DNA from: Candidatus Endomicrobiellum roisinitermitis
Lineage (GTDB): Bacteria; Elusimicrobiota; Endomicrobiia; Endomicrobiales; Endomicrobiaceae
Direction: 5' to 3'
DNA length: 32,942 bases
Assembly: GCA_031287855.1 (NCBI GenBank)
Contig: JAITSL010000040.1
Coordinates: 1 to 32,942 of the forward strand
Positions 4,806-32,876 of this stretch are shown piece after piece. The translations under genes were made by a program, and so were the position numbers. How positions within the stretch are numbered: the stretch's first letter is position 1; every line of letters starts with the position of its first letter. The notes under the pieces were generated by a model. It worked only from the letters and a program-made list of their open reading frames with translations. It was not told where the DNA came from and made no database searches.

Positions 4806-4946
4806 AAAATCAGTAAATCTAGCTGGTATGATATTTTATCGCTTATTTATTGTCTTTCATAATATATTTTATGTTATAGTTTAAGTTAGTTAATATTCTT
4901 TCAAGATATAAATTTATTTTTGTCTATTTTTAGACTCTTATCTATG

Positions 4947-7386: not shown

Positions 7387-7429
7387 TACATACTCCAATT
7401 AATTGTTATTTAGATATTACTTTTAGATA

Positions 7430-8251: not shown

Positions 8252-8541
8252 GTAATCCTCTAAATTTACACAATAATAAATTTAAAAATATATTATCAAA
8301 AAATATATATCTGTACAAATTTTTATCATTGCTATAAATGCAAATTTAAAATATTAAAATAAGCTTCTTGTTTGTTTGAAAAAATTTTTATATTATTAAC
8401 ATGCAATGAATAATTTTGAGAATATTATATCTCTACTGTACATTTTTATAATTAAAAAAATTTTCTGTTTTTAAAAGAGAATATTTTTGTAAAACAGATA
8501 AATAATGCTTTTTAGTAATTTTTGAGTTTTTTGGAGAATGT
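8252..8541. other. Divergent AT-rich upstream region
   Basis: This is the intergenic stretch between glyQ (minus) and the decayed barrel gene (plus). It is almost entirely A and T and must hold the glyQ promoter. A GATAAT box on the minus strand (8297-8292) is the only plausible -10 seen, and its -35 is poor. No ORF, tRNA or repeat was seen. Confidence 0.4.
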
Positions 8542-9025: not shown

Positions 9026-9084
9026 TCCTATTCGTAAAAGATTACAAGTTATGAATTAATAACGAAATATAAAGAGGACTAAAT

Positions 9085-10386: not shown

Positions 10387-10396
10387 AGAGAGATAA

Positions 10397-10501
10397 ATGG
10401 GTTATAAGCTTATAGATATGCATCTTCATACAAATTTTCTGACAGTATCTTTCAACTTGAATATGGCCAACAAAAAACAATTAAATAAGTTAATAATATA
10501 A
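10397..10501 (+). pseudogene. Remnant of a PHP-domain phosphoesterase gene
   Basis: A 34-codon ORF with a weak AGAGAG site begins MGYKLIDMHLHTNF. The IDMHLHT segment is the first metal-binding motif (HxH) that opens PHP-superfamily phosphoesterases, where it is normally followed by SDG and over 200 further residues. Here the sequence jumps to an unrelated Lys/Asn-rich tail and stops at TAA 10499-10501. That looks like a large internal deletion joining the first and last codons of the old gene. The stop overlaps the ATG of the next gene (TAATG), so the remnant may still be translated and couple translation of its neighbour. Confidence 0.55.
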
Positions 10502-11964: not shown

Positions 11965-12013
11965 TGTATAAGTTAGCACATAATTATTATCTTACCCACG
12001 TTACAATAGTGAT

Positions 12014-12107
12014 CCACTAATGCAGCAATCGCAAATAAGCATTTAAAAAATAAGCAAACTTGCAAAATGGTAAGACAAGAAAGGCATAAATGAATTTTGC
12101 TTCAAAC
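12014..12107 (+). repeat. Dispersed repeat, copy 2
   Basis: Same-orientation copy of 4947-5030. Identical blocks are AGCAATCGCAA (12024-12034), AAATGGTAAGACAA (12065-12078) and GCTTCAAAC (12099-12107). A stem seems to be kept in both copies: here CATTTA (12040-12045) pairs with TAAATG (12087-12092) and GCAAA (12031-12035) with TTTGC (12096-12100). Copy 1 keeps an equivalent CATTTAAA/TTTAAATG pairing. Confidence 0.62.
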
Positions 12108-12115
12108 ACTGATAT

Positions 12116-12279
12116 GGAGTCTGTCTAAAAACCTTAACGCATATTTCTACTATGCCTTTTTCTACACTGCTGCGTTAAAAAACTTGTGTTTATTACGCTA
12201 TAAAGCCCAGTGTTTTTTGCCTTACATTGTCAAAAAATTCACAGTAATTATAAGCATTTAGAGTTTTTAGACAGATCCC
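12116..12279. mobile_element. MITE-like element with terminal inverted repeats
   Basis: The ends of this 164-base non-coding segment are inverted repeats. TCTGTCTAAAAAC (12120-12132) is the exact reverse complement of 12263-12275, and the match extends to both ends (12116 and 12279) with two mismatches. Inside, TTAACGCA (12134-12141) and TGCGTTAA (12171-12178) form a second perfect inverted pair. It has no ORF, so it would need a transposase supplied from elsewhere. No clear target-site duplication was found in the flanks. Confidence 0.5.
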
Positions 12280-12289
12280 TTACATTAAA

Positions 12290-12318
12290 ATGACAAAATA
12301 TATTAAAAATTATATAAT
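12290..12318 (+). promoter_or_regulatory. Sigma70-type promoter of the UDP-sugar dehydrogenase gene
   Basis: ATGACA (12290-12295, five of six bases of the -35 consensus), a 17-base spacer and a perfect TATAAT (12313-12318). Transcription would start near 12325, about 23 bases before the ATG at 12348, which has GAGG in front. The promoter begins 11 bases after the MITE-like element ends. Confidence 0.65.
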
Positions 12319-12347
12319 TAAAACCAAAATGTTTTTAATGAGGTTAT

Positions 12348-13649
12348 ATGTATAAAAGTTTGCTTGAAAAAATTAATTCTAAAAATGCAAAAATTGGTGT
12401 TATAGGTCAAGGGTATGTAGGGCTTCCTTTATCTTGTCAGCTTGCAAAACAGGGGTTTAGCGTTACAGGTTTTGAAGTGGACGAGTCTAAAGTTAAGATG
12501 ATAAATAGTGGGAAATCGTATATTGGTGATGTAAGTTCTAAAGATTTAAAAGAGTTGGTTGATACTAAAAAGATTTCTGCAGACACAAATTTTAAAAACC
12601 TTTCACATATGGATGTTTTAATTATTTGTGTACCAACTCCTCTTAGGAAATCTAAAGATCCGGATGTCTCTTGTTTACTTGAGGCAGCAAAGAATGCTAG
12701 AAAAACTTTAAAAAAAGGCCAACTTATTATATTAGAGTCTACAACTTATCCTGGCACTACAGAAGAGTTGGTGCTTCCGATATTAAAAGAAACAGGTTTA
12801 GTTGTGGGAAAAGATTTCTTTTTAGCTTTTAGCCCAGAAAGAATAGATCCGTCAAATAAAAAGTTTGATATAAAAAATACACCAAAAGTTGTTGGTGGTA
12901 TGTGTGCAAAGTGTGCTGATCTTGCTTTGGCAGTGTATTCTTCTTTTACGGAAGTTTATAAAGTTTCGTCAACTCAAACTGCAGAAATGGTAAAACTTTT
13001 AGAAAACACTTTTAGAGCAGTAAATATTGCTTTGGTTAATGAAGTTGCTTTAATGTGTGACAAGTTGAGCCTTAATGTTTGGGAAATTATAGATGCAGCT
13101 TCAACAAAACCGTTTGGATTTATGCCTTTTTATCCTGGTCCTGGAATAGGTGGTCATTGTATACCTTTAGATCCACACTATTTGTCTTGGAAACTTAAGA
13201 CAGTAAACTTTTATTCAAGGTTCATAGATTTGGCTGGAGATTTAAATGCTAAAATGCCAAACTATGTTGTCTCAAAATTGCAAGATGCGTTAAATGCAAG
13301 GTCTAAAGCTTTAAAAAATGCAAAGATTTTAATTTTGGGCGTAGCTTATAAAAAAGACGTATCTGACGGTAGAGAATCACCAGCAATAGATGTTATAAAT
13401 ATATTGATGGAAAAAATGGCAAACGTTTTTTATTATGATGCACATGTACCTGTTGTAAAAAATTGTGTGTGTGGTAAAATTTTGAGTTCATTAAATAATC
13501 TTAACAATTTAAATAAATTTGATGCTGTCGTGGTAGTTACAGACCATTCAGATATAGATTATAAAAAAGTTTTAAAAGATGCTAAAGTTATTATAGATAC
13601 AAGAAATGTTTTTAAAAATGTTAAGTCAAGTAAAATTGTAAGAATATAA
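12348..13649 (+). CDS. UDP-N-acetylglucosamine 6-dehydrogenase-type nucleotide-sugar dehydrogenase (WbpA-like)
   Basis: The enzyme oxidises the C6 hydroxyl of a UDP-sugar to a carboxylate with NAD+, supplying uronic-acid precursors for surface polysaccharide. Residues 20-27 (GQGYVGLP) are the Rossmann nucleotide-binding loop. ESTTYPGTTEE and SPERIDPS are family blocks, and the catalytic cysteine is Cys271 in GGHCIPLDPHYLSWK. The C-terminal UDP-binding domain contains GVAYKKDVSDGRESPA. The length, 433 aa, is typical of the UDP-GlcNAc/UDP-ManNAc dehydrogenase subgroup; the TYPGTTEE and GKDFF motifs favour the WbpA-like UDP-GlcNAc side, but substrate cannot be fixed from sequence. It has its own promoter and opens the carbohydrate block. 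Confidence 0.9.
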   Translation: MYKSLLEKINSKNAKIGVIGQGYVGLPLSCQLAKQGFSVTGFEVDESKVKMINSGKSYIGDVSSKDLKELVDTKKISADTNFKNLSHMDVLIICVPTPLRKSKDPDVSCLLEAAKNARKTLKKGQLIILESTTYPGTTEELVLPILKETGLVVGKDFFLAFSPERIDPSNKKFDIKNTPKVVGGMCAKCADLALAVYSSFTEVYKVSSTQTAEMVKLLENTFRAVNIALVNEVALMCDKLSLNVWEIIDAASTKPFGFMPFYPGPGIGGHCIPLDPHYLSWKLKTVNFYSRFIDLAGDLNAKMPNYVVSKLQDALNARSKALKNAKILILGVAYKKDVSDGRESPAIDVINILMEKMANVFYYDAHVPVVKNCVCGKILSSLNNLNNLNKFDAVVVVTDHSDIDYKKVLKDAKVIIDTRNVFKNVKSSKIVRI

Positions 13650-13756
13650 TCAATTTGTATAAGTGGTTAGTATAAAACAAATCTGAAAATAAGTAGTTTC
13701 TCAGAAATGTCTAAAAATTTTTTAAAAATAGAATTTTTAATAACTCCGGAGGAAGT

Positions 13757-14827
13757 ATGGTAAAAGATGAAAAACTTAAAGCTTTGGATTTAGCGTTATC
13801 TCAAATTGAAAAAGATTTTGGCAAAGAAGCAATTATGAGGCTTGGTGAAAAACATGCAAAAGAAAATGTAGATTCTATATCTACTGGCGCACTTCCCTTA
13901 GACATTGCTATAGGTATTGGTGGTATTCCTAGAGGGAGAATCATTGAGATTTATGGACCAGAATCTTCTGGTAAAACTACTCTTGCTTTATGTATGGTAG
14001 CGCAAACTCAAAAACTTGGTGGTATAGCAGCATATATAGACGCTGAGCATGCAATGGACCCAGAATACGCAAAAAAGATAGGTGTGGATATAGAAAATTT
14101 GTTAATCTCTCAACCAGATTCAGGGGAGCAAGGTCTTGAAATTGCAGATAAACTTATACGTTCTGGAGCTGTAGATATAATAGTTGTAGACTCAGTAGCG
14201 GCACTTGTTCCAAAAGCTGAAATTGAAGGCGAAATGGGAGATTCTTTTGTAGGGCTTCAAGCTAGACTTATGAGTCAAGCTTTAAGGAAACTTACTTCTA
14301 ATATTTCAAAATCAAAAACCTCTATTGTATTTATAAATCAATTAAGACAGAAGATAGGAGTTATGTGGGGAAGTCCGGAGACAACTCCTGGTGGTCTTGC
14401 TTTGAAGTTCTATTCTTCTGTAAGACTTGATATTAGAAGAATTGAGTCTGTCAAAAAAGGTGATGAAGTTTTGGGTAACAGGGTGAGAGTAAAAGTTGTT
14501 AAAAATAAAGTAGCAGCTCCATTTAAGCAAGCGGAATTTGAAATAATTTTTGGACAGGGTGTAGATAAGTTTGGCTATTTAATAGATATGGGTGTAAATG
14601 ATGGCATAATAGAAAAAGCAGGTGCTTTTTTTAGTTATAAAGGTGAGAAACTTGGGCAGGGTAGGGAAAATGTAAAAGTATTTTTAGTTGAAAATCCTGC
14701 TATAGCAGAAGAAATAGAAACAAAAATAAGAGAAAAAGCTTTTGGTTTAGAAAAAAATGAAGAAAATAAATCAGAATCTTCTGTTTCAAAAGAAAAGAGT
14801 TCTAAAAACTCAAAAAAAAGAGAATAA
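13757..14827 (+). CDS. recA: RecA recombinase
   Basis: RecA forms ATP-dependent filaments on single-stranded DNA, drives strand exchange and triggers LexA-type autocleavage. Walker A is GPESSGKT at residues 67-74; the conserved [21 protein letters not shown] (L2 and neighbouring region) and the [18 protein letters not shown] segment (Walker B and L1) are all intact. The length of 356 aa includes a charged Ser/Lys-rich tail after residue 330 that varies among bacteria. The TCCGGAGG ribosome binding site is the strongest in the window. No LexA-like operator was recognised in the 107 bases upstream. The GT9 gene starts three bases after the stop, an unusual partner for recA that suggests read-through into the carbohydrate genes. 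Confidence 0.97.
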
Positions 14828-14830
14828 GCA

Positions 14831-16030
14831 ATGATTGTAAGTTGTAGCCCGGACAATAAACAACTTCTAGAAGAGTCTGATTTACACATATCTAATTTAA
14901 GTAGAAAACTTTTAAGGGAGAAAGTGCGCATTTCTTTTAGACGAAGTTTAAAAGACTTTTTTAAAAGTTTGCCAGAATCTTTAAACTTTGTCTTAAAAAA
15001 GAATAATAAGACAAAGATATATATTGCACTTGTGCTTGCTGGTGGTATGGGCGATATTTTAAGGCAGAAGGACGCTCTTTGTGCTATTTTAGAGGTGTTT
15101 CCTTATGCCGTGGTTGATGTTTATGGTAAAACTTACAAGTTATTTTTTAAAGATATAAAAAATGTAAGATTTTTTTTCAATAAATATTTTATAAGTTTTT
15201 CTAGAAAAAGATATGACATAGTTTTAGACTATTTTTCTAGTGACAATATTACAAGTGGTATTTGTGATTTAGCTGTTAATTCATTAAGAACTGATAGTTT
15301 AAAAAGCTTTAAAGCAGATTTTGAATATTTGAAAACTCAGTACCCTTATTGTTTTAAATTTGAAAATCAATATTTTTTTCAAAAGAAAGCTGTAGAAAAC
15401 AAATTAAAATTTAACAATGTAGTTAAACTAACTGCAGGGATTAAAAATTTTACAAAAATTGCGTTGCCATTAAATTTTAGAGAGCAAGATATTTTAAAGT
15501 TTGGGTTAAATAAACAGTGTAAATATATAACTTTTCAACATGGATGGGGAAACAAAGGTTATATTCCAAATAAAATGTATATGTCTACACATCTTTGGGA
15601 GACAAAAAATTGGGAAGAATTGCTTAAAAAAATAAAAAGAATGTTACCTGAATATAAAATAGTTCAGCTAGGTTTGGCAAGTCCGCATGTTACATGTGCA
15701 GATGTAAACTTAGTAGGCAAAACTTCTTTTGATGAGCTTTGCTCTGTTATTAAGTACTCATCATTGCATATAGATACTGATTGTGGTTGTGTTCATATTG
15801 CTCAAGCTGTTAATACTAGATCTGTAGTGCTCTTTGGTCCTTCAAATGCGGAATATGTTGGATATGAAGATAATATAAATATTGTTGCTAATTCGTGTCG
15901 TAACTGTTTTGTGATAGAAAAGTGGTATGAAAAGTGTGTTAGAGGTTTTAAGGATCCAATATGTATGAAATCGATATTACCAAATTTTGTTGCAAACACC
16001 ATAAAAGAAAATTTAAGGGATAGTAGATGA
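14831..16030 (+). CDS. Glycosyltransferase family 9 (heptosyltransferase-like)
   Basis: GT9 enzymes add heptose or related sugars to the LPS core at the cytoplasmic face of the inner membrane. The acceptor-domain signature is present as LAGGMGDILRQKDAL. The C-terminal donor-binding part shows HIDTDCGCVHIAQAVNT followed by VVLFGPSNAEYVGY. A Cys-rich tail (SCRNC ... KCVRG ... ICMKSI) matches the CxxC...C...CM pattern of heptosyltransferases. The protein is 399 aa; about 60 basic residues at the N-terminus are extra compared with simple GT9 proteins. It begins three bases after recA, with AAGAGA inside the recA end as a possible ribosome binding site, and its TGA overlaps the ATG of the epimerase gene (ATGA). 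The exact sugar is unknown. Confidence 0.82.
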   Translation: MIVSCSPDNKQLLEESDLHISNLSRKLLREKVRISFRRSLKDFFKSLPESLNFVLKKNNKTKIYIALVLAGGMGDILRQKDALCAILEVFPYAVVDVYGKTYKLFFKDIKNVRFFFNKYFISFSRKRYDIVLDYFSSDNITSGICDLAVNSLRTDSLKSFKADFEYLKTQYPYCFKFENQYFFQKKAVENKLKFNNVVKLTAGIKNFTKIALPLNFREQDILKFGLNKQCKYITFQHGWGNKGYIPNKMYMSTHLWETKNWEELLKKIKRMLPEYKIVQLGLASPHVTCADVNLVGKTSFDELCSVIKYSSLHIDTDCGCVHIAQAVNTRSVVLFGPSNAEYVGYEDNINIVANSCRNCFVIEKWYEKCVRGFKDPICMKSILPNFVANTIKENLRDSR

Positions 16031-16956
16031 AAGTTCTTGTTACAGGAGGGGCAGGCTTTATAGGTTCTAATATTGTAGACGCTTTACTTGGAAAGAAGTA
16101 TTCAGTTGTTGTTATTGACAATTTATCTTCAGGGAAAAAGGAAAACGTCAACAAACAATCTAAATTTTACAAAGTTGATATTTGCGATCAGAAAAAAATG
16201 TTAGATATATTTAAACAAGAAAAACCGCAAAATGTAATACATCATGCCGCGCAAATTGATGTAAGAAAATCTGTTGCGGACCCTGTTTTTGATGTAAATG
16301 TAAATATTATAGGATCAATTAATATTCTTGATGCGTGTAGGCAAACAAAGGTTAAAAAGATAATTTTTGCTTCTTCAGGTGGTACAATTTATGGAGAATG
16401 TAAAGCTGTTGCTCCAAAAGAAGATTCAATGCCAAACCCTTTGTCTCCATATGGGATTGCCAAAAATTCTGTGGAGAACTATATAAAATTTTATTCTGAG
16501 ATTTATGGTTTAGAATATACAATTTTAAGATATGGGAATGTTTTTGGGCCAAGACAAGACCCTTACGGCGAGGCAGGTGTAGTTGCTATATTTGCTCAAA
16601 GAATGCTTAAAAATGAAGATATTATGGTTTTTGGAGACGGTAAACAGATGAGAGATTATGTTTATGTTTTTGATGTTGTAGATGCAAATGTTAAATCTTT
16701 AACAAAAGGGAAAAATGAAGTTATAAATATAGGTACATCTAAAACAACTTCTGTTAATAAACTTGTAGAAGTTATGAGCAAAGTTAGTGGGTATAAGAAA
16801 AAAACTATACATAAACCTAAAAGAGAAGGAGAAGTATTTAAAAGTTTTTTAAACATAAATAGAGCAAGAAAAGTTTTAGGGTGGACACCTAAAGTAAATT
16901 TAAATAATGGTATAAAAGTTACTCTAGAATATTTTAAAGAGAGACTAAATAAATGA
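16027..16956 (+). CDS. NAD-dependent sugar-nucleotide epimerase/dehydratase (GalE-like)
   Basis: An extended short-chain dehydrogenase of 309 aa. The NAD-binding GGAGFIG is at residues 7-13, the catalytic Ser lies in FASSGGTIYGE (Ser116/117), and Tyr142 and Lys146 form the YxxxK pair in PYGIAKNSVE. RYGNVFGPRQDPYGEAGVV and the GDGKQMRDYVYV block are typical of UDP-glucose/UDP-GlcNAc 4-epimerases. It interconverts UDP-hexoses for surface glycans, but whether the substrate is UDP-Glc, UDP-GlcNAc or the uronic acid made by the upstream dehydrogenase cannot be told. It overlaps the GT9 gene before it and the nucleotidyltransferase gene after it by four bases each (ATGA), which points to translational coupling. 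Confidence 0.87.
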   Translation: MKVLVTGGAGFIGSNIVDALLGKKYSVVVIDNLSSGKKENVNKQSKFYKVDICDQKKMLDIFKQEKPQNVIHHAAQIDVRKSVADPVFDVNVNIIGSINILDACRQTKVKKIIFASSGGTIYGECKAVAPKEDSMPNPLSPYGIAKNSVENYIKFYSEIYGLEYTILRYGNVFGPRQDPYGEAGVVAIFAQRMLKNEDIMVFGDGKQMRDYVYVFDVVDANVKSLTKGKNEVINIGTSKTTSVNKLVEVMSKVSGYKKKTIHKPKREGEVFKSFLNINRARKVLGWTPKVNLNNGIKVTLEYFKERLNK

Positions 16957-17990
16957 AAGCGTTTGTTCTAGCTGCAGGAATTGGTACAAGGCTTAAGCCT
17001 CTTACTACAGATATACCTAAGCCAATGGTACCTATTTTAGACAAGCCAGCTTTATATTATACATTTGCTAATCTTTTAAAGTATGGTTTTGACAGTGCTT
17101 GTGTAAACACACATTACCGGAGCGAAGTTATAACAGAATATTTTAAAGATAATAAATTGGGCATAGATTTAAAGTTTTCTTGTGAGCACAAACTTTTAGG
17201 TACAGCAGGAGCAATAAAAAAGAACGAATCTTTTTTTGATGGTACATTTGTTGTTATGTCTGGCGATGGCTTAACTGATATTAACCTTAAAAAAGCTCTA
17301 GGATTTCATAAACGAAAAAAATCTATTGCAACTGTTGTTTTAAAAAGAATAAATTTAAGATTTGAATATGGTATAGCAATAACGGACAAAGCAGGACAAA
17401 TTAAATCTTTTGTGGAAAAGCCATTGTGGGGAGATGTTTTTAATGATGAAGTAAATACTGGTATATATATATTTGAGCCCAAAATTTTTGGTTTTATTCC
17501 AACTGGCAAATTTTTTGATTTTGGTAAAGACTTATTCCCTCTTTTAATGCAGAAAAAAGAGAAGATGTACGGGTATTTAATGGATGAATATTGGACAGAT
17601 ATCGGGAACATTTCTGAGTATAAAAAGGGTGTTTTTGATATTTTAGATGATAAAGTTAAAGTAGATTTAAATGCTATAAAAAATTCAAGTAATAGGTATA
17701 TATCTTCTAGCGCTAAAATAGATAAAACTGTAAAAATACAAGGGCCTTGTTATATTGGTGACAACGTTGCAATAAAAGGAGGGACAAATATAAAACCTTA
17801 TAGTGTTGTATCAAAAAATGTCATAATAGACGCAAACAGCTTAATAGAGAAGTCTATACTTTGGGAAAATACTAAAATTGGTAAAAGTGTGAAATTAACT
17901 AACACAATTGTTGGTAGTAATATACTAGTTGCTAATCAAATAACATTGTTTGATTCCATAATAATGGAAGAAAAAACGTCAGTCAGGTGA
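16953..17990 (+). CDS. Sugar-phosphate nucleotidyltransferase with C-terminal beta-helix
   Basis: The enzyme joins a sugar-1-phosphate to an NTP to give an activated sugar. The N-terminal pyrophosphorylase signature runs from Gly9: GIGTRLKPLTTDIPKPM. MSGDGLTDINL supplies the metal-binding aspartate and FVEKP the sugar-binding block. From about residue 245 the chain turns into hexapeptide-type repeats (IDKTVKIQG, CYIGDNVAIK, ENTKIGKSVK, NTIVGSNI) of a left-handed beta-helix, as in mannose-1-phosphate guanylyltransferase-like and GlmU/GlgC-like proteins. The length, 345 aa, is normal. It is the last of the ATGA-coupled genes; metK starts 54 bases later with its own ribosome binding site. The nucleotide and sugar are not determined. 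Confidence 0.85.
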   Translation: MKAFVLAAGIGTRLKPLTTDIPKPMVPILDKPALYYTFANLLKYGFDSACVNTHYRSEVITEYFKDNKLGIDLKFSCEHKLLGTAGAIKKNESFFDGTFVVMSGDGLTDINLKKALGFHKRKKSIATVVLKRINLRFEYGIAITDKAGQIKSFVEKPLWGDVFNDEVNTGIYIFEPKIFGFIPTGKFFDFGKDLFPLLMQKKEKMYGYLMDEYWTDIGNISEYKKGVFDILDDKVKVDLNAIKNSSNRYISSSAKIDKTVKIQGPCYIGDNVAIKGGTNIKPYSVVSKNVIIDANSLIEKSILWENTKIGKSVKLTNTIVGSNILVANQITLFDSIIMEEKTSVR

Positions 17991-21983: not shown

Positions 21984-23915
21984 TTGGATAAATATAATAA
22001 AAATTTGTTCAGACTAAAATTAACTTTAGTATACTTTTCTATCTTAATTGCTGCTTTTTTTGCATTTAGGGTTGCGCTGTTGTATACTAATTACAGATTT
22101 TTTAATCAATTGTCTTGTCTTGAACTTTTATATTCTTTTTTGCTAGGGTTTCGTTTTGATGTTTTCGCGATTTCTGTGGTTTGTGGAATTCTTTTGTTTT
22201 TAATAAATATACCTCTAAAATCTAAATTATTTTTAAAAATCAATTGTAGTTTCCTTAATATTTTTATTTTCTTTACTACTTTATTACTTGCTGGAGATAT
22301 AATTAATTTTAAATTTTTTAATAAACACTTAACTACAGAAATTTCATTAGCTAAAAATCATGTCAGTTACTTTTTGAGTTTAGCGTTTAAAGATTATTTT
22401 TTTATCACTTTAACAATTATATTAGTTTTTATTTTGTTATTTTATTTTTCGTTCCAATTTATAAATAAAAATTATTATTATTCACAAAAAGATACTGCTT
22501 TAAATTTATTTGTAACTTTTATAGTAGCTTTTATTTTGGTTGTTTTTGCTAGAGGTGGGGTGCAAGAGAGGATTCTTTCTATTACAGATGCGTATTCTAG
22601 AAATAAAATTTCAGGAGAATTACAGCTAAACGGCGTTTTTACTTCTTTAAAAAGTATAAGCGCTCAAACTTTGCCAAATGATATAAATGTTTCTTACCAA
22701 AATGCACTTTCTGTTTTAAGAGACAATCTTTTAGATAAAAATGAAGAAGTTTTTGTAGATGATAAATATCCTTTAATGAGGCAAAGAATTAAGTTTAATG
22801 TGAACATGCAAGGGTATAATGTTATAATTATCTTGCTTGAAAGTTGGCAAAAAGATTATATAGATTCGTTGGCTGGAACAAACTATGGTGTTACTCCAAA
22901 TTTTGACAACATTTCTAAAGAATCAATAATATTTGACAATTTTTATGCTAATGGACAAAGAAGTATAATGGGGTTGATGTCAGTTTTGTTGAGTATTCCT
23001 TATGTAAAAGGTATGCTATACTTTGGACAAGGTCTTGAAAATTGCGGTCAAACAAGATTGCCTGCGATACTAGGAAAAAGTGGGTATGACAATGTATTTG
23101 TTCAAGCTGATAAAAGAGAATCCGATAATGCGATAGCAATAGCAAATTATTTAGGTTTTAACGAATCTTATGGTAAGGAAGATATTCCACTTCATCATAA
23201 CTATTTGCAGATAAATAAGGGTTATGATATAGAGGGTCTGGAATTTTTCTTTAATAAAGTTCAAAAATTAAAAAGTCCTTTTTTGGGATTTTACTTTACT
23301 TCAACTACGCATATACCTTACACAAAAACAGTTTTAAAATCCCTTGAAAAATATCCTGAAGATGGTACAGAGAAAACTGGATATTTAAACAGACTGTATT
23401 ACTCTGACTATGCGTTGGGCGAATTTTTTAAAAAAGTAAAAGAGTCTAAATGGTTTGATAAAACAATTTTTATATTACTTTCTGATCATCAAGCTTATGG
23501 AGTGGGTGGGATAAATGGACTTTTTGAAAAGACAAAAGTAGACAAAACATTTAAAATTCCAGCAATAATATACTGCCCAAAGTTGTTTAAGCTTCAAAGG
23601 AATACCAATCTTGCAAGCCAAATTGACATTGTGCCTACAATAATTGATTTGTTGAACATAAGAACTCCGTACTCTTCTTTAGGAAAAAGCTTGTTCTCTA
23701 AAACAAAAAATAGATTTGTTTTTCTTTCTTATGAAGGAGAACAAGTTTATCTGATAAATAGTGAAGGGGTTTTAAGTTACGATTGGAAAAATATTTGTGA
23801 TAAACAAAAAAAGTTGTTGTTTGAAAAGAATGAAAAGTTATTGTTTTCAATAGAAAAAGTGATCTATTATTTAACTGCAAAAGACAAGTGGTACGATAGT
23901 GAGATTTTAAATTAA
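21984..23915 (+). CDS. LtaS-like membrane phosphotransferase / sulfatase-fold protein
   Basis: A 643-aa inner-membrane protein. Residues 10-190 hold about five hydrophobic segments, and the rest is an extracytoplasmic alkaline-phosphatase-superfamily (sulfatase-fold) domain. Metal-binding positions fit Glu286 (ILLESWQ), the nucleophile position Ser327 (NGQRSIMG), His near residue 443 (TSTTHIPY) and Asp/His in LLSDHQAYG. LtaS, OpgB and EptA-type enzymes move phosphoglycerol or phosphoethanolamine onto surface glycans and use Thr at the nucleophile position; here it appears to be Ser. The start is uncertain: TTG 21984 with CGGA seven bases upstream is the only reasonable candidate near the previous stop. 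Neighbouring transferases suggest it decorates LPS or another surface glycan. Confidence 0.8.
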   Translation: MDKYNKNLFRLKLTLVYFSILIAAFFAFRVALLYTNYRFFNQLSCLELLYSFLLGFRFDVFAISVVCGILLFLINIPLKSKLFLKINCSFLNIFIFFTTLLLAGDIINFKFFNKHLTTEISLAKNHVSYFLSLAFKDYFFITLTIILVFILLFYFSFQFINKNYYYSQKDTALNLFVTFIVAFILVVFARGGVQERILSITDAYSRNKISGELQLNGVFTSLKSISAQTLPNDINVSYQNALSVLRDNLLDKNEEVFVDDKYPLMRQRIKFNVNMQGYNVIIILLESWQKDYIDSLAGTNYGVTPNFDNISKESIIFDNFYANGQRSIMGLMSVLLSIPYVKGMLYFGQGLENCGQTRLPAILGKSGYDNVFVQADKRESDNAIAIANYLGFNESYGKEDIPLHHNYLQINKGYDIEGLEFFFNKVQKLKSPFLGFYFTSTTHIPYTKTVLKSLEKYPEDGTEKTGYLNRLYYSDYALGEFFKKVKESKWFDKTIFILLSDHQAYGVGGINGLFEKTKVDKTFKIPAIIYCPKLFKLQRNTNLASQIDIVPTIIDLLNIRTPYSSLGKSLFSKTKNRFVFLSYEGEQVYLINSEGVLSYDWKNICDKQKKLLFEKNEKLLFSIEKVIYYLTAKDKWYDSEILN

Positions 23916-23936: not shown

Positions 23937-25109
23937 ATGAAAAATTTTATCTGTTTGTTTTCCATCCTTTTATTAGTTACTATGCTAAAAACCGTAGAAG
24001 CTTTTTTTAGTAATTCAGGTTATCAAATTTTTAATTATAATAATTTCTTCATGTCATGTGACTTTTTGTATGAGGATAGTATTATTTGCCCTTTTTGTAC
24101 TAAGATGTCTGCAGGTAGTAATGAAAGTTATGTGGAGGTTACGAACTTATATTTTGAAGAGTTTGATTATGAACCTAGTTTAGAATTTAAACTTTTAACT
24201 CCACAACATCAAAATGGTTCTGTTTCTATATATGATGAAGAAGATGTTGTTTTTAATGTAGTACATAATGATGTAGCAAATAATGCCCCTCAAGAAGGCT
24301 ATCCAAAAATTCTATTAAAGCTTCCTGATGGTTCAGCTAAAACTTACTCAATGAATGAAGGTGGGTCTGTAGATAAAGATAAAGCTTCATATACGTATAC
24401 TTTAAAATTGGATAAAGGTAGTTATGAGTATAAGTATATAACTACAAACAAATATGACAGTAGTAACTTGTGCGAAGTAGATGGAAATTGGCATGTTACT
24501 AGTAGGCCTTACAATTTTGTCAAAAAAGCACCACATTCTACATTTGAAGAAATACCAGACAATGTATGTTTTTCTTGGAACATAAATACTGATGAAAATG
24601 ATGATAAACTATCTTATGATTTATATTTAGGACTTGAATCAAAAAAGTCTGATATTAAAAAAGTAGAAAAAAATCCAGATATTAATTCTTTATCTCATAA
24701 CATAGTAAAATTAAAACATAAGAAAAAATATTATTGGTATATGATTATAAAAAATAAGTTTGGAGTATCTCTTGAAACTGAAATATTTTCTTTTTTTACA
24801 GGAGGGTTAATAGAAAAGTTTTATAATGCACCTAATCCCTTTAATCCTGGTATAGGTACAGTAACTGACTTTGTTTTTCCTATGTATTATGACGGCACTG
24901 CTGAAATAAAAATTTATTCTGAATATGGTGACCTTGTTTGGGAATCAGATAAATCTTTTTTTGAGGGCAATACTACTGGCAACATAAAGTATGATGGAAA
25001 AGATAATTCAGGCAGAAGTCTTTATAATGGTAGTTACATTGCAATTTTAATTAAAAAGTACGATGATAAAACGGAAATTCAACGGTGCAGAATACTTATA
25101 ATAAAATAA
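23937..25109 (+). CDS. Secreted protein with FN3-like and T9SS-type (FlgD-Ig-like) C-terminal domain
   Basis: Exported protein of 390 aa. Residues 1-22 form a signal peptide ending TVEA. Residues 60-190 look like a beta-sandwich module (DGSAKTYSM, YTYTLKLDKGSYEYKY). Residues 195-290 resemble a fibronectin type III domain (VCFSWNINTDENDD ... KKKYYWYMIIKN). The end, from Pro299, carries PNPFNP, then AEIKIYSEYGDLVWE, YDGKDNSGRSLYNGSYI and a final basic-hydrophobic strand RCRILIIK. This order is the pattern of FlgD-Ig-like / type A sorting domains that direct cargo to the type IX secretion system in Bacteroidota and relatives. It sits directly before PorV-like and SprA-like genes, with GAGAG before the ATG. 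It could be cargo or a surface component; function beyond that is unknown. Confidence 0.7.
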   Translation: MKNFICLFSILLLVTMLKTVEAFFSNSGYQIFNYNNFFMSCDFLYEDSIICPFCTKMSAGSNESYVEVTNLYFEEFDYEPSLEFKLLTPQHQNGSVSIYDEEDVVFNVVHNDVANNAPQEGYPKILLKLPDGSAKTYSMNEGGSVDKDKASYTYTLKLDKGSYEYKYITTNKYDSSNLCEVDGNWHVTSRPYNFVKKAPHSTFEEIPDNVCFSWNINTDENDDKLSYDLYLGLESKKSDIKKVEKNPDINSLSHNIVKLKHKKKYYWYMIIKNKFGVSLETEIFSFFTGGLIEKFYNAPNPFNPGIGTVTDFVFPMYYDGTAEIKIYSEYGDLVWESDKSFFEGNTTGNIKYDGKDNSGRSLYNGSYIAILIKKYDDKTEIQRCRILIIK

Positions 25110-26830
25110 TATTAGCTCTTCTCTTATTGTTATTGATATTTCAAGTTAAAGAAATATATGGATATTCGGGTAGAAGAAAACATTTTTTATCGCATGGCCC
25201 AAGCGTTGCTGCTTTTGGTGCTGGAGAAACTGTTTTTTCTGCTTACAGAGATCCGTCAGTTTTACAATATAATCCAGCTTTAATGTCTTTTGCTGCAAAT
25301 GCTGTATCTATATCTCGTTTCAATTTGTTTGAAGGTTCTTCTTATAATTCTGCAACACTTGCTTTTAGATTAGGTAAAAAATTTTATCTTGGACTTTCTA
25401 CATCTAATTTAGCTAGCGGAAATATTGAAATAAGAGAAAATATTTATGCTTTAGAGAAAGTTATTTCTGTAAATAGTTGGAACTATGTTTTTTCTTTTTC
25501 AGGTTTTGTAGAAAGTTTGACAGTTATGTATGGATTAAACGTAAAATATGTATATTTTGATATGTACTTAAAAAAAAGAGCAACATATTGTTGTGATTTT
25601 GGTTTAGCAAAAGAGGTGTTTTTGGCAGATACTATAAAAATAAGAACTGCTTTTTCTGTGCAAAATTTTATTTTAAATAAGCTTGATTACACCTTTGAGG
25701 AAAGCCCTTTAATTTGTAGAGTTAGTTCTGCTTTTGTTTTGCCAACATATTATAGATTTACGTCAAAGGATACTCTTAATATTTATATAGATTTAAAGTA
25801 TGAAGATTCTTTTGGTGATGTTTGTATAGGGGTGTCTTATATTTTTGCAGAAAAATATGCTTTACGTACAGGATATTATAGTAAGCACATTACATTTGGT
25901 GCGGGAGCTGATTTTTATATGTTTACAGTAGACTATTCTGCAGATTTTAGTGAGATAGATTTGATAAACAGATTTATGTTGACATATAGGTGGGGGAAAA
26001 AATGCGATGCTTTATTAAAAGAAGCAAAAATTGCTTTAGATGAAGAAATATCTTCTATGAAGATAGCTCAAGAAGAGTTTAAAAAAGCAAAAGAATTATA
26101 TAATAAAAAAGAATATTTAAAAGCTACAGATAAATTGTCAAAAGTCATTGTTTCTTATCCAAATTTTGAATCGTCAAATCATTTTTATAACGATATTATT
26201 AGATTGATGGATGATAATGCTAATGATAAAAATCTTAATTTTGCTGAAAAATATTATGCTAAAGCTTATATTGAATATTATGATGCAAACTATAAGGAAG
26301 CTTTAAATGAGTGGACAAAATATATAGCGTTTACTGGAGGGAAAGCAGAAGTTTTTGAGTATAAAGATAAGATAGATAACATTTTAAAATTAAAAGAAAT
26401 GGAAGATAGAGAAAAAGAGGTTACCGTTAAAGTTCAAAAACTTTTTCAAGAAGGAATTGAACTTTATAGTTTAAAAAAATGGATACATTGTATTAAAAAG
26501 ATGGAATCTGTAGAGAAATTTATAAGTAATAATAATTTTTCGAAGTCTGTAGAATTTTATAATAAAGCTAAAGAATATATAAATAAATGCGTTATTGAAT
26601 TGTCAAATGATGCGTTACTAGTAGACTCAAATGATAAAGATTCTTTAACAGAAGAAGTCAAATATGATGAAGCTACTTCAGATGAAAAATACAGAGAAGG
26701 GCTTGTCTTATATGCTCAAGGTAAGTACTATCAAGCAAGCAGGATGTGGGAGCTTTCTTTAAGATTAAACCCTAATCATAAAAAAGCAAAAATAGCTTTA
26801 CATAGAATAAAAAAAATTAAGCTTGAGTAA
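25085..26830 (+). CDS. PorV/PorQ-like outer-membrane barrel fused to TPR repeats
   Basis: Residues 1-27 are a signal peptide (LLLLLLIF core, cleavage near IYG). Residues 35-300 look like a PorV/PorQ (UPF0164) barrel: AFGAGETVFSAYRDPSVLQYNPALMS is the typical N-terminal block, followed by alternating strands to about residue 300 (FMLTYRWGK). Residues 305-581 are helical and TPR-like (EEFKKAKELYNKKEYLKATDKL; YREGLVLYAQGKYYQASRMWELSLRLNPNHKKAK). PorV shuttles cargo from the SprA translocon in known T9SS. The periplasmic or surface TPR fusion is unusual. The start is GTG 25085, overlapping the previous gene by 25 bases; CGGA lies shortly upstream. The SprA-like gene starts six bases after the stop. 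Confidence 0.75.
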   Translation: MQNTYNKIILALLLLLLIFQVKEIYGYSGRRKHFLSHGPSVAAFGAGETVFSAYRDPSVLQYNPALMSFAANAVSISRFNLFEGSSYNSATLAFRLGKKFYLGLSTSNLASGNIEIRENIYALEKVISVNSWNYVFSFSGFVESLTVMYGLNVKYVYFDMYLKKRATYCCDFGLAKEVFLADTIKIRTAFSVQNFILNKLDYTFEESPLICRVSSAFVLPTYYRFTSKDTLNIYIDLKYEDSFGDVCIGVSYIFAEKYALRTGYYSKHITFGAGADFYMFTVDYSADFSEIDLINRFMLTYRWGKKCDALLKEAKIALDEEISSMKIAQEEFKKAKELYNKKEYLKATDKLSKVIVSYPNFESSNHFYNDIIRLMDDNANDKNLNFAEKYYAKAYIEYYDANYKEALNEWTKYIAFTGGKAEVFEYKDKIDNILKLKEMEDREKEVTVKVQKLFQEGIELYSLKKWIHCIKKMESVEKFISNNNFSKSVEFYNKAKEYINKCVIELSNDALLVDSNDKDSLTEEVKYDEATSDEKYREGLVLYAQGKYYQASRMWELSLRLNPNHKKAKIALHRIKKIKLE

Positions 26831-26836
26831 TCGTAA

Positions 26837-29800
26837 ATGAAACCTTTTCAAAAAGTTAAATTTTTTATTTTAATACTTCTTATATTAATTACTCTAACAT
26901 ATAAAGTAAATTCTAAAGATGTTGAAAATAAATATTCTGTGCTTGGGACTTACAAGGATGAAGTTTATAAAGGGTTTGATAAGTACAATATGTTTAAAAA
27001 TATTGATGCTGTTGAACCATCTGGAACAATAATATCCCAAGACTATTTTTCACCTCATAGTGAGTTTGAATTGCCAGAATCTGCTCAAGAAATTGCAGGT
27101 CAGGAAATTTTAAAATATTTTAAAAATAAAGAAGATGATAATATAAAGTATTCGCAAAATAGTTGGCTACTAAAAGATCTCATTATCTCTGACACAAATA
27201 CCGTTTTAGTTTCGTCTACTTCTTTGTCTAAAATAAAGTTACCGTTTCAGTCGAGTTTATCAATTACTGGAAGAAAATTGATAGGCTTTAATTATTCACA
27301 AAGAGTTTATGATAATCAAGAATATGGTAAACGCCAAAATTTGTCATCATTTAAAATGGAACAAGAAATGCAAATGAGAGTTTTAGGAGGGGTTGGTGAT
27401 AGGTTTAATGTTAATATCGATTATGATGATAAAGCAGAAAAAAAGGATATATCTTTAATATATAAGGGAAAACCTAAAGAATTTATACAACAGGCTTCAT
27501 TTGGTGATATAGAAGTATCATTACCTACGACAGAATTTACAAGGTATAAAAAAGAGCTGTTTGGTTTAAAAGTGGATACTCGTTATAAAAATTTAGGCGT
27601 TAACGCTTTTTTTAGTAAAACTAAAGGTCTGTCTGAAGTTAAACGTTTTGTAGGAAATACTCAGCTAGAAAGAAAAGTTATACCAGATACTGCTTATATA
27701 AAATTAAAATATTATTCTCTTTTAAGAAATGGGGATAATCGTAAAATAAAAAGTGGAACAGTTAAGGTATATGTGGCTTATCAAAAGTTAGATCCAAAAT
27801 ATAATTTTTCTATTACTTCAGGTGTAACTCTTTATGATTTAAATGTCACTACTGGTTTTTCTTATAAGGGGAACTTTGTTCTTCTTGTTGCAGGGCAAGA
27901 TTTTAGTGTTGACTATAATACTGGTGTGCTTGTTTTTAAAAACTCCATATCTAAAGGTGATGTTGTAGCTGTAAATTATGATTTTGAAGATGGTATGCCT
28001 CTTTCAGTTAACCCTTTAATTATTAAGGATATTAATGATATTCAAAATATCACGACAGAAATTAAAACTTTTTATAATTTAGGTAATTTGAAAATAATAA
28101 GAGATAATGGAAGAGGGAATTTTTTACTTGTAATTAAAGATCTCAATGGTAATACTCCTGCAGTTATTGATGGAGGTAAAAATGTGCCATTATATCCTCA
28201 AAAATCAGGATATAATGCAAATATTGACGTTGATTTTGAAAATGGTATTTTTAGATTGTCTGAAACTTTGCACGATTCTTTGTATTTAACTAATGAGCAT
28301 AAATATAATTTTGAAACAGAGTATCAGTACAATGTCAAAATAATAATGTTAAGACCAAACATAGTTCCAAAGTCAGAGAAAGTTGTTGTTGAGGGTGTCA
28401 CTTTAAGTTCTGAGATAGATTATATTTTAGATTATGATTTAGGTATTTTAACAATAAAGAATGAAAATATAATAAAAGAAAACTCTGTAATAGATGTGTC
28501 TTATGAGTACTCTTTATTAGGTGCTCAGGCAGAGACTGTTCTTCTTGGAGCTAGTAGTAAGCTTAACTTAACTGAAAACATTTCTATTGGTGCAAGTATG
28601 TTGCACAATTTTATGTCTAAAAGTACAGTTTTGCCAGATATAAGGAATGCGCCTACAACTCTTACTGTAGGAGAGGGCGATTTTAAAATTGATAACTTAA
28701 ATATAGATGCATTAAATATACAACTTAATGCAAATGCAGAGTACGCTTTAAGTGCTTATAATGAAAATAGTGTAAATAAAGCTTTAATAGATTCTATGGA
28801 CAGTTCTGTTAGAGAAGATTCAATTATTCTTTTAGAAGATAATTGGTTCCCTAGCGCAGATAAATACCCTACAACAAGAAGAATGTTAAACGATTTATCT
28901 TGGAATAGTTATGAGATCAACATAAAAGATATTGATCCGAGTTTAGAGCTAGTTGATGGTCAAAAACAACTAGTTTTAGAGTTAAATTACGATGTTAGGT
29001 ATAGAAGTCAAATAGCTTTTGCTCAAAAAATTTGTCCAAATTGGGACGGTTTAGATTTTTCTAAAAAACTCTATCTTGAAGTGTGGATAAAAGATAATAA
29101 TTCTAATTTGCATGAAATGGTGATAGATTGTGCTTCATGTATTAATGAGGATTCAGATGGATGTGGTGTGTTAGATACTGAAGATGTCGATGGTACAGGC
29201 ATTTTAAGTCCTTGGAAAGATACTGGTAGAAAATTTCACAATGTTGATGGCACAGTATCTTTAATAGGTGCTCATAATGGTAAACTTGACACGGAAGACA
29301 TAAATGGGAATGGACTACTAGATACTTTAGAAGACATAGCTGGAAGTTACAGTCTTTCAAGCTTGAGTGCTACTGTAATTAAACAGAATATTAATGGTTG
29401 GAAACAAGTTAGGATACCTTTAGGTATAAATGATGCTAATAGGACAAATTGGAAAAATATAAGAATTTTGCGCATTAGAATGAGACAAACGGATTCCGGA
29501 GGTGATACAGGTAAGATTATTATAGGTAAAATTTCTATAGTTGGGAACAAGTGGGAAAAGACAGGTCTTAATGCAGATAATTTTAGTATTTCTTCTATAG
29601 GAAGATATGATCCTGAATATAAGTCAGTTTTAACTAGTAAATACTATTTAGATTTATATGGAATAAGTGGTCAAATTAAAAAAGATGAAAATGCTTTAAA
29701 GTTTTTTTATGATACGTTTATTACTAATGTTCCTTTACTGGCAAAAGCAGTTTATAGTGGAGATGTTTTAGACATATCTAAATATGACAGTATATGTTTT

Positions 29801-32146
29801 ATGATTTATGCAAAACCTAGTGATGGTTTTGCACAAGTAGGAGATGAAATAATATTTAGAGCTTGTGGAAATGATGATAATTATTTTGAGTATAAAACTA
29901 TAGTGAGTAATGATGTATCGTGGCAAGATTGGAAAGTTATTAAAATTAATCAATCAGGTTTTGGAAAGAATGCTTCCTGGACAAGCGCTGACCCTGGTGG
30001 ACAAATAACAGTAACTGGAAACCCGTCATTAAATAGGATTTCTCAATTTGTGTTAGGTGTTAAGTCAAACTCTGTGGGAAGCAAACATCAAATTTGGTTT
30101 AAAGAATTGCATGTAATTGGTAGTAAAGAGACCATAGGTAAAGCTTATAAAACAGCAGGTGATATTAAGTGGAATGGAACATCTAGTTTAGGCGCAGTTT
30201 CTGTTGGAGGATCTAAAAAATCTATAAATAGAAATTTTCAAAATCTTGCAGCAGGAGTGTATAATAGAGAGTTGCTTGAAGAAGACGCTTATGTTAGTTT
30301 GGGAGGCTTTACTCCTAAGGAAGATATAAGTATTCTTCCTATTAAAACTGGAATTTCAAGAAGGTGTACAATAACCCCTGAAGTTATAGAAAACAGGTCT
30401 AATTTAATTTCTTTAAACGAGGAAGGGCGAGTAATAACATATGCAGGTTATACTCAAACTGATTTAAGTTTAGGCACAAATTTACCGCAAGTATCTGCAG
30501 AATATAGTAGGTCTATTATAGATACTTCTAAAATCAGTCGTTTAGAGGATAGGGAAACTTTGTCAGGTAATATGGTTTACAATAACCCTATTAGAATTTT
30601 TCTGTTGCCTACAAATATTAACGCTGATGTAAAAACGATAAAATCTTATTATAAAGTGTATCCTTCAACTCCCATACTAGAGTCCGATTCTTTTTTAGGT
30701 TTAGACAAAATAAACGAGTATTTGGACGTTAATCAATACCATACGTTAGAGCAGTCTAATATGTTTATTTTTAAACTTCCTTTTAAATTTTTTGATAGTG
30801 TTACATTTTTACCAGCTTATTCATTAAATATGGTAAAAGAAAAAAATAATGATTTTACTGCTGAAATTGAGTACGACAAAACTTTAAACCAAGCTGTAGG
30901 TGCAAGTTTAATTTTAGGGTTTGTAAATTGGTTTAGTCCGTCTTGTATATATAGTATTAACACAAAAGAAAATTATGATATAAATTTAAGCACATCTCAA
31001 ACAACCTTAAAAATACCTGGTCAAAAAAAATATATAGAAAGAAGTGGTGTTGGTGAAATTGCATGGAACTTAAATGCTTGTGATATTACAAATTTAGCTC
31101 TATTTAAAAGTTTAACTTTTTCAACATATTATAGATTACAAGATTCTGATTCTTATGATAAGGTAAATAAAGATTTTAGGTCTATAGGTTTTGCTATGGA
31201 CAAACTTTGGGTCAGAGGCAATATTTTAATGGATTTGGAACCTTTTTATTCTAGCAATTCTTATATTGTTAAAACAATTTTAAATAAAGATGATATTCGT
31301 TTTTCTGGGAAATATATGCCTTTTGAAATATTTTCTTTTCAAGGATACCTTTTACCATTAAACACGGTTACTACTAATTTTACTTACACACAAGGAGATG
31401 AAAATTCATATATAACTGGAACAAGACGAACTATATGTACGTTGACTTGGCCAGATATTCTTATAGGCATATCTAAAACAGAGAGACTTTTATTTAGTAC
31501 AAATTTTTTAAGCGATACTCAATTGAATGCTAAATATAAAAATAAGCAGATGACAACTTATGGAATTTCATATTCTGATAGTCTTTTATGTGGTTTAGAG
31601 TATAGGTTCAAATTTGTAAAACTTTTTGATTTGTATTTAGGTTTAGATAATACAGACTTTAAAGAACATGATTATATTACTTACGATGTTCTTTATAATG
31701 GTAATGGTCAAAAATATGCGTGTCAGGGCGCTGTTGATGTGGGTGAATGGAGGTTTTCTATAAGATATGAAAATGAACATAATTGGCAAAAAAATGCTTC
31801 TGGAAGATATATGTCTAATGTTAAAAAAAATACTTATTTAGGACAAGTAAATTTAGACACTTTGTTCCCTTCGGGGTTTAGGATACCAATTATAAAAATA
31901 TTTGTTCCACTTAGAAACAGAATTATTTTTACGTCTAATCTTAAATATATAGACCAGCAGTCTCAAGTAAATGTAGAAAAAGACAATAATACAAACTATG
32001 GTGTTTCTTTAAATACTGATTATGAAATATCTAAATATTTTAGATTCATTTTTGGACTTATTTGGGATAGGTTTGAGTTTCGATATAACAGAAATTTGAA
32101 TTATCACGATATTACTGCTTTGAGTAAACTAACTTTTCAGTTTTAA
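26837..32146 (+). CDS. SprA/Sov-like giant outer-membrane protein (T9SS translocon candidate)
   Basis: A 1769-aa exported protein, the largest in the window. Signal peptide at residues 1-26 (LILLILITL core, VNS). The N-terminal region reads LPFQSSLSITGRKLIGFNYS and GDRFNVNIDYDDKAE, then GDIEVSLPTTEFTRYKKELFGLKVDTRYKNLGV, which follows the order seen in SprA (Sov) proteins. Many alternating beta strands fill the rest, and the chain ends in LTFQF, a terminal aromatic typical of outer-membrane barrels. Residues 768-835 hold Asp-rich repeats (DTEDVDGTGIL, DTEDINGNGLLDT) resembling calcium-binding TSP3-like repeats. SprA of Flavobacterium is about 2400 aa, so this one is clearly shorter. SprA forms the very large T9SS channel; the PorV-like gene upstream supports this reading. 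Confidence 0.68.
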   Translation: MKPFQKVKFFILILLILITLTYKVNSKDVENKYSVLGTYKDEVYKGFDKYNMFKNIDAVEPSGTIISQDYFSPHSEFELPESAQEIAGQEILKYFKNKEDDNIKYSQNSWLLKDLIISDTNTVLVSSTSLSKIKLPFQSSLSITGRKLIGFNYSQRVYDNQEYGKRQNLSSFKMEQEMQMRVLGGVGDRFNVNIDYDDKAEKKDISLIYKGKPKEFIQQASFGDIEVSLPTTEFTRYKKELFGLKVDTRYKNLGVNAFFSKTKGLSEVKRFVGNTQLERKVIPDTAYIKLKYYSLLRNGDNRKIKSGTVKVYVAYQKLDPKYNFSITSGVTLYDLNVTTGFSYKGNFVLLVAGQDFSVDYNTGVLVFKNSISKGDVVAVNYDFEDGMPLSVNPLIIKDINDIQNITTEIKTFYNLGNLKIIRDNGRGNFLLVIKDLNGNTPAVIDGGKNVPLYPQKSGYNANIDVDFENGIFRLSETLHDSLYLTNEHKYNFETEYQYNVKIIMLRPNIVPKSEKVVVEGVTLSSEIDYILDYDLGILTIKNENIIKENSVIDVSYEYSLLGAQAETVLLGASSKLNLTENISIGASMLHNFMSKSTVLPDIRNAPTTLTVGEGDFKIDNLNIDALNIQLNANAEYALSAYNENSVNKALIDSMDSSVREDSIILLEDNWFPSADKYPTTRRMLNDLSWNSYEINIKDIDPSLELVDGQKQLVLELNYDVRYRSQIAFAQKICPNWDGLDFSKKLYLEVWIKDNNSNLHEMVIDCASCINEDSDGCGVLDTEDVDGTGILSPWKDTGRKFHNVDGTVSLIGAHNGKLDTEDINGNGLLDTLEDIAGSYSLSSLSATVIKQNINGWKQVRIPLGINDANRTNWKNIRILRIRMRQTDSGGDTGKIIIGKISIVGNKWEKTGLNADNFSISSIGRYDPEYKSVLTSKYYLDLYGISGQIKKDENALKFFYDTFITNVPLLAKAVYSGDVLDISKYDSICFMIYAKPSDGFAQVGDEIIFRACGNDDNYFEYKTIVSNDVSWQDWKVIKINQSGFGKNASWTSADPGGQITVTGNPSLNRISQFVLGVKSNSVGSKHQIWFKELHVIGSKETIGKAYKTAGDIKWNGTSSLGAVSVGGSKKSINRNFQNLAAGVYNRELLEEDAYVSLGGFTPKEDISILPIKTGISRRCTITPEVIENRSNLISLNEEGRVITYAGYTQTDLSLGTNLPQVSAEYSRSIIDTSKISRLEDRETLSGNMVYNNPIRIFLLPTNINADVKTIKSYYKVYPSTPILESDSFLGLDKINEYLDVNQYHTLEQSNMFIFKLPFKFFDSVTFLPAYSLNMVKEKNNDFTAEIEYDKTLNQAVGASLILGFVNWFSPSCIYSINTKENYDINLSTSQTTLKIPGQKKYIERSGVGEIAWNLNACDITNLALFKSLTFSTYYRLQDSDSYDKVNKDFRSIGFAMDKLWVRGNILMDLEPFYSSNSYIVKTILNKDDIRFSGKYMPFEIFSFQGYLLPLNTVTTNFTYTQGDENSYITGTRRTICTLTWPDILIGISKTERLLFSTNFLSDTQLNAKYKNKQMTTYGISYSDSLLCGLEYRFKFVKLFDLYLGLDNTDFKEHDYITYDVLYNGNGQKYACQGAVDVGEWRFSIRYENEHNWQKNASGRYMSNVKKNTYLGQVNLDTLFPSGFRIPIIKIFVPLRNRIIFTSNLKYIDQQSQVNVEKDNNTNYGVSLNTDYEISKYFRFIFGLIWDRFEFRYNRNLNYHDITALSKLTFQF

Positions 32147-32156
32147 AATTTTGAAA

Positions 32157-32876
32157 ATGATAAAAAAAATATTTTTTAAAACAATTAATTTATTATATCC
32201 TGTTACTTGTTCTTTATGTGGTAAAGATTTGACTGCTATATCTAAATATAAAATTTGCGATGAATGTAAAAAATCTTTTAATAAAATACGAAATGATATA
32301 TGCCAAAAGTGTGGTATTAATTTAGGTGATGGAGGAAATTTGTGTTGCACATGTAGGAAAAATTTACAAATATATGGCTTTGACAAATTAAGATCAGTTT
32401 ATTTATATAAAGGAAACTTAAGAAAATTAATTTTAAAATTTAAGTATTCAAACAGACCTTTTTTGTATAAAGACTTTGCTTTTGAAATGAATAAGTCGAT
32501 ACAAGAATATGATTTTTTTAAAAGTTCAGATTTCATTATACCTGTCCCTCTAAATATTTTAAGGAAAATAAAAAGGGGTTATAATCAAGCAGAACTTTTA
32601 GCAAAAGAAGTGTCTATTAAAACAGAAATTCCTATATTAAGGAATATTTTGTTTAGAAAAAAAATTACAAAACCTCAATTTAAATTATCTAAATCTGAAA
32701 GAATAAAAAATATTGACAATTCTTTTATTGTGAAAAATAAAAATGTGATAAAAGGCAAAACGATTTTGTTAGTAGATGATATAGCTACTACTTGTTCAAC
32801 TGTGTCTTCTTGTGCTAATGTCCTTAAAGGCAATGGAGCACAAAAAGTTTACGTTTTAACGCTTGCTAGAGATTAA
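32157..32876 (+). CDS. comF: ComF family phosphoribosyltransferase-like protein
   Basis: ComF/GntX-type protein with an N-terminal zinc-finger region made of Cys pairs (CSLCGKD, CDECKK, CQKCG, CCTCRK) and a C-terminal type I phosphoribosyltransferase domain whose PRPP loop is VDDIATTCST at about residues 206-215. YKGNLRKLILKFKY and GYNQAELLAKEV are further family marks. ComF is needed for DNA uptake in naturally competent bacteria, but relatives are widespread in non-competent ones, so competence is not implied. The ATG at 32157 gives 239 aa; a TTG two codons upstream (32151) is possible. It starts ten bases after the SprA-like gene with no clear ribosome binding site. Confidence 0.87.
   Translation: MIKKIFFKTINLLYPVTCSLCGKDLTAISKYKICDECKKSFNKIRNDICQKCGINLGDGGNLCCTCRKNLQIYGFDKLRSVYLYKGNLRKLILKFKYSNRPFLYKDFAFEMNKSIQEYDFFKSSDFIIPVPLNILRKIKRGYNQAELLAKEVSIKTEIPILRNILFRKKITKPQFKLSKSERIKNIDNSFIVKNKNVIKGKTILLVDDIATTCSTVSSCANVLKGNGAQKVYVLTLARD

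Follow-up and report, generated by a model that had tools for sequence, protein, structure and literature searches.

Three adjacent genes for proteins of 390, 581 and 1769 amino acids (aa) in Candidatus Endomicrobiellum roisinitermitis, a termite-gut bacterium, raise the question of whether the Elusimicrobiota export proteins by part of a type IX secretion system (T9SS). The window analysed here, all 32,942 nucleotides of contig C50 (JAITSL010000040.1), belongs to a 1.26-Mb genome that is 98% complete. A first-pass annotation of this DNA had read the three products as a secreted protein with a PNPFNP/FlgD-Ig-like C-terminal sorting domain (CTD), a PorV/PorQ-like barrel and an SprA/Sov-like barrel, and had considered a compact, divergent T9SS in a host outside the Bacteroidota. 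The host is indeed an Endomicrobium-type member of the Elusimicrobiota, and to our minds (at a probability of roughly 0.78) SprA, PorV and the CTD form a phylum-wide protein-export module that represents the translocon half of a T9SS and would be powered by another energy source or by motor homologues too divergent for detection.

The 1769-aa protein is an SprA homologue by profile, by profile search of the PDB and by fold. The SprA profile TIGR04189 matches four separate parts of it with E=3.9e-39 and 133.8 bits, and since this falls below the curated cut-off of 200 bits, the protein ranks as a divergent homologue and not, by that cut-off, as an equivalog. Used as a single query against the PDB it found no match, and a profile was required: one built from 20 Elusimicrobiota sequences, which share 27-84% identity with the protein of the window, has SprA of Flavobacterium johnsoniae as its sole match (E=1.8e-41), covering residues 151-267, 701-779 and 1158-1571 of the latter in three collinear stretches. 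In an AlphaFold2 model of residues 570-1769 (mean pLDDT confidence score 81) the final 700 residues contain, by our own count of listed strands, about 28 long ones. Foldseek comparisons of this piece rank SprA structures first (E=4e-36 to 5e-27), ahead of a second-ranking family at 1.5e-5. The TM-scores of 0.43 are modest, which probably reflects the absence of one third of the protein from the modelled piece. As expected for an outer-membrane barrel, all 20 sequences end in Phe, and each fetched locus carries one sprA gene for about 1730-1940 aa, except for one longer open reading frame (ORF).

For the 581-aa protein, the assignment as a PorV shuttle holds at the level of the family and stops short of a PorV equivalog. 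Its barrel half matches the PorV/PorQ family NF033709 (E=2.8e-16) but stays under the cut-off of 90 bits, which a 718-aa paralogue in the same genome exceeds; its C-terminal region matches tetratricopeptide repeats (TPR). Against the PDB, the PorV profile retrieved by sequence essentially TPR proteins alone, and the barrel was instead placed by fold: a model of middling quality (pLDDT 70) shows about 16 strands and, after them, TPR helices, and in the PDB it most resembles PorV as bound in the SprA complex (chain 6h3i_F, E=2.4e-11, 21% identity), with OmpG and FadL ranking below. In such a model the TPR region should face the periplasm. Three further barrels of this family are encoded in the genome, namely the 718-aa paralogue, which also has TPRs (contig C36), and proteins of 301 aa (C19) and 441 aa (C44).

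Taken alone, the CTD of the 390-aa protein is weak (CHU_C, E=0.0079; FlgD_ig, 0.19). A leave-one-out profile made from CTDs of other proteins, however, locates it at exactly residues 294-390 with 16.9 bits, and 30 shuffled controls score at most -0.3 bits. The first-pass annotation had made its reading depend on further proteins with this domain in the genome, and there are four: subtilase-like proteins on C24, C18 and C19, and a secreted 113-aa protein on C36 that consists of the CTD only. Two of these exceed the TIGR04183 cut-off of 23 bits (C24, 33.4 bits; C36, 27.6 bits) and the C24 protein also exceeds that of PF18962 (30.8 against 27), so the genome does encode cargo with a recognised sorting domain. 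PorU is the top match of the CTD profile, and PorZ is aligned with it through its last residue. A giant ORF on C16 (positions 3-17708, minus strand, locus L022), which encodes at least 5902 aa and covers most of its contig, was considered as a further cargo and not counted, its FlgD_ig match being a 27-residue fragment away from the C-terminal end. All three assignments of the first-pass annotation are thus borne out, that of the 390-aa protein with the help of the leave-one-out profile.

Genome-wide, these five CTD proteins and four PorV-family barrels are spread with their genes over at least six contigs, and three times a PorV gene adjoins a CTD gene: the 390-aa protein is paired with the 581-aa PorV-TPR barrel on C50, the CTD-only protein with the 718-aa PorV-TPR barrel on C36, and a subtilase with a plain PorV on C19. 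In the window, the ORFs for cargo, PorV-TPR and SprA are adjacent on the plus strand, the first two overlapping by 25 nt and the last following after a 6-nt gap. Precisely this 25-nt overlap is kept in 12 of 12 relative loci measured, which suggests, at the level of gene layout, translational coupling of cargo and shuttle. The side-by-side order that had drawn attention to the locus is real, but as a triplet it is confined to the window's own Endomicrobium clade. SprA-like counterparts in Endomicrobium/Endomicrobiellum metagenome-assembled genomes are 83-96% identical to that of the window, which places the host among the Endomicrobium-type bacteria. Elsewhere in the Endomicrobiaceae the cargo-PorV pair lies at a separate locus, and in six genomes (G250, G258, G284, G293, G295, G298) it was found without sprA in the stretch read. 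Close to the cargo gene, other Endomicrobiaceae have an ankyrin-repeat protein (L101, 11984-13336) or a BspA-type leucine-rich-repeat protein (L102, 8370-9662). Next to PorV-TPR and CTD-only genes we observed regulators, an OmpR-type response regulator lying directly upstream both in L019 (G000:C36:8000-24000, 6333-9562) and, together with a sigma factor, in L106 (G291:C24, 4568-8715).

How widely is the module spread? Across 341 Elusimicrobiota genomes SprA is present in 292 and a CTD profile match in 286 (first-look CTD candidates numbered up to 131 per genome, 14 of them scored). In a table counted by hand from the genome lists, 268 genomes have both, 31 neither, and 24 and 18 are discordant, giving an odds ratio of 19 (p=7e-17) without phylogenetic correction. 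In the SprA tree, sequences from one family and order cluster together, so that SprA looks like an old component of the phylum that has been passed on vertically; given this tree and the 292 genomes, acquisition of the triplet from Bacteroidota by horizontal transfer finds no support. Within the genus, 12 of 16 SprA-positive genomes have an uninterrupted full-length CTD as opposed to none of 26 SprA-negative ones, and PorV-family matches occur in 16/16 versus 3/26. SprA, PorV and intact CTDs have thus been lost jointly in reduced endosymbionts. The triplet is not the compact one-locus system first considered, cargo and shuttle genes being scattered over contigs and sprA being a phylum-wide locus in its own right, usually beside lptF/lptG and comF.

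Judging from sequences and models, there is a good probability that the module functions in the manner of the T9SS half made up of translocon, shuttle and CTD. With the steps modelled on F. johnsoniae (PMC10994853), cargo would cross the inner membrane via Sec and enter the SprA-type outer-membrane barrel. A PorV-family barrel docked where SprA opens laterally would catch the CTD of the cargo with its extracellular loops, and shuttle plus cargo may then exit through the side of SprA onto the cell surface. Shuttle genes tend to have the gene of their own CTD protein as a neighbour, which makes the 390-aa protein the putative partner of the 581-aa PorV-TPR barrel. The step that GldLM powers in Bacteroidota would be driven by another agent or by homologues too divergent for detection. 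As the likeliest coupling sites we envisage the TPR regions that some shuttles carry as fusions (two of them in this genome are candidate coupling points) or a TPR lipoprotein that adjoins another shuttle.

That core motor parts lie outside the window, as the first-pass annotation had remarked, is correct but falls short of the actual situation: in the whole genome and 149 relatives, profiles for GldL, GldM and GldN gave no convincing match, in a set that held no T9SS-positive control genome and a search that left aside SprE, SprT and GldK. A search for GldK would also pick up ordinary FGE-sulfatase proteins. The few matches to GldL, GldM and GldN are weak, none of them better than E=1.8e-5, and the ones examined turned out to be coiled-coil, repetitive or unrelated proteins. 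Peptidases of the C25 (PorU) type are likewise absent from the genome itself and present in just one of the 150 (G335, family f29), where C25 gingipain/PorU-type sequences occur, one of them with a CTD (L107 = G335:C55, 6723-9617, and L094). Since the profile searches thus turned up neither the GldL/GldM motor, nor the GldN ring protein, nor the PorU sortase by which a T9SS is defined, we do not class the module as one: 'type IX-like' fits, the strict label 'type IX secretion system' does not.

Might the T9SS nevertheless be complete and canonical, with a GldLM motor, a GldKN ring and a sortase too diverged for the profiles to reach? Compared with SprA, GldL and GldM are short, their profiles are Bacteroidota-built and were run on a set without a positive control genome for these genes, and G335 does have its C25 peptidase with a CTD. 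The SprA profile, however, is equally Bacteroidota-built and finds 292 of the 341 genomes, as opposed to the few weak hits described above, and hence we consider an undetected complete system unlikely. Mechanically, a module that has no motor or draws on another source of power is conceivable, because in F. johnsoniae it is the release of shuttle and substrate from SprA that the motor drives, whereas loading proceeds without energy (PMC10994853). With odds that we put somewhat below even, SprA, PorV and CTD could be an old self-standing module of the Elusimicrobiota ancestor that runs without a rotary motor of the GldLM kind and takes its power from another route, for example from Tol/ExbBD-type coupling to the shuttle TPR regions or from folding of the cargo outside. 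If so, the T9SS of Bacteroidota would be the same module plus a motor.

The surroundings of sprA in other families bring in lipid or lipopolysaccharide transport, to which the SprA homologue might have been recruited with PorV and CTD genes being incidental. Outside the genus, sprA stands divergent to lptF/lptG in 16 of 20 loci and precedes comF in 17 of 20; the lptF/lptG flank, in most cases with comF on the other side, recurs in L057-L071 and L074, across most Elusimicrobiota families, and the comF-sprA adjacency is probably positional linkage only. An M6 metalloprotease with a CTD, however, lies a few genes from sprA in families f2, f3, f4, f6, f19 and f29, and a PorV-family barrel does so in f2, f3, f6, f9 and f19, arranged differently from the window triplet; PorV and CTD genes cluster with sprA in eight other families, besides being lost together with it. 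Moreover, LptD is not the closest match of the 1769-aa protein in sequence or fold; the fold match to SprA is about 30 orders of magnitude better by E-value, and a separate LptD of about 700 aa was detected in 13 of 150 genomes, several of them also SprA-positive, and on these grounds replacement of LptD was rejected. A lipid transporter is therefore very improbable. That the CTDs are ordinary FlgD-like Ig domains, the barrel a FadL-like porin and their neighbourhood chance can draw on CTD profile matches to FlgD structures and on the FadL folds lower in the PorV search, but is hardly credible given PorU and PorZ as CTD matches, T9SS cut-offs exceeded, PorV as top barrel match, three separate PorV-CTD pairs in one genome and the conserved 25-nt overlap.

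Several observations nonetheless weigh against an export module of the kind we favour. The SprA match lies under its equivalog cut-off, FlgD-type Ig domains resemble the CTDs and are matched by the CTD profile, and the failure to detect GldL, GldM and GldN, together with the near-absence of C25, leaves the known energy and attachment steps without an identified agent. Co-loss is confounded by general genome reduction and shared ancestry, median genome size in the genus being 1.23 Mb with SprA and 0.75 Mb without. Seven of the SprA-negative genomes measure at least 1.0 Mb. Furthermore, gut Elusimicrobiaceae (family f15; G012-G101) mostly keep SprA, yet their CTD matches are scarce and weak; either the cargo domain has drifted there, or SprA serves few substrates.

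Around the three genes (Table 1), the window holds housekeeping genes (recA, glyQS, lytB/ispH, an S1 protein, SAM synthetase) and sugar genes. The membrane sulfatase gene stands before the cargo gene in the window clade and in some relatives, and has a putative role in the module at most.

Table 1. Features of the module and its flanks in the window (contig C50).
Feature	Position	Strand	Characteristics
390-aa secreted protein, proposed cargo / attachment partner of the next gene	23937..25109	+	signal-peptide-like N terminus, Ig/fibronectin-like middle, type-A-like CTD
CTD of the 390-aa protein (residues about 294-390)	24816..25106	+	PNPFNP ... YDGKDNSG ... CRILIIK
581-aa PorV/PorQ-family outer-membrane barrel, proposed shuttle	25085..26830	+	GTG start; barrel about residues 70-303, C-terminal TPR about 308-580
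1769-aa SprA/Sov homologue, outer-membrane translocon	26837..32146	+	signal-peptide-like N terminus, barrel with invariant C-terminal Phe
643-aa LtaS/OpgB-like phosphoglycerol-transferase-type membrane sulfatase	21984..23915	+	upstream of cargo gene
ComF-family protein	32151..32876	+	adjoins sprA

T9SS genes have been stated to be absent outside the FCB group (PMC11285876), and a survey of 2016 had the system in Bacteroidetes only (PMC4793230). Our literature search joining Elusimicrobia with type IX or T9SS, whose coverage excluded most subscription papers and all preprints, retrieved no report of the system there. If nearly every member of the Elusimicrobiota does export proteins by way of SprA, PorV and CTD, the system would be older or wider spread than thought and a whole phylum would gain an assignable secretome. 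It would also provide a natural case of a translocon without the known motor, in which the role of that motor in T9SS transport becomes directly testable, and for termite-gut symbionts it would mark a surface-protein pathway lost during genome reduction.

Compared with known systems, the regulator that adjoins PorV-TPR and a small CTD protein (joined by a sigma factor in one relative) is reminiscent of the PorXY-SigP-PorA circuit of Porphyromonas gingivalis (PMC7712824), a likeness of gene adjacency, the small protein here being a CTD alone and, unlike PorA, without an adhesin domain. Closer in layout are the cognate pairs of PorP/SprF shuttle and type B CTD shown experimentally in F. johnsoniae (PMC12618676), in that a shuttle gene adjoins that of its own CTD protein, albeit here with a shuttle of the PorV family and a CTD resembling type A. 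From the T9SS of F. johnsoniae and P. gingivalis the module differs in that GldL, GldM and GldN were not detected and a C25 sortase was found in 1 of 150 genomes, in a translocon of about 1770 rather than about 2400 residues, in the fusion of the shuttle to TPRs, in the linkage of sprA to lptF/lptG and in its phylum. What it has in common with them is an SprA-type translocon, shuttles of the PorV family and type-A-like CTDs on secreted proteases and Ig-domain proteins.

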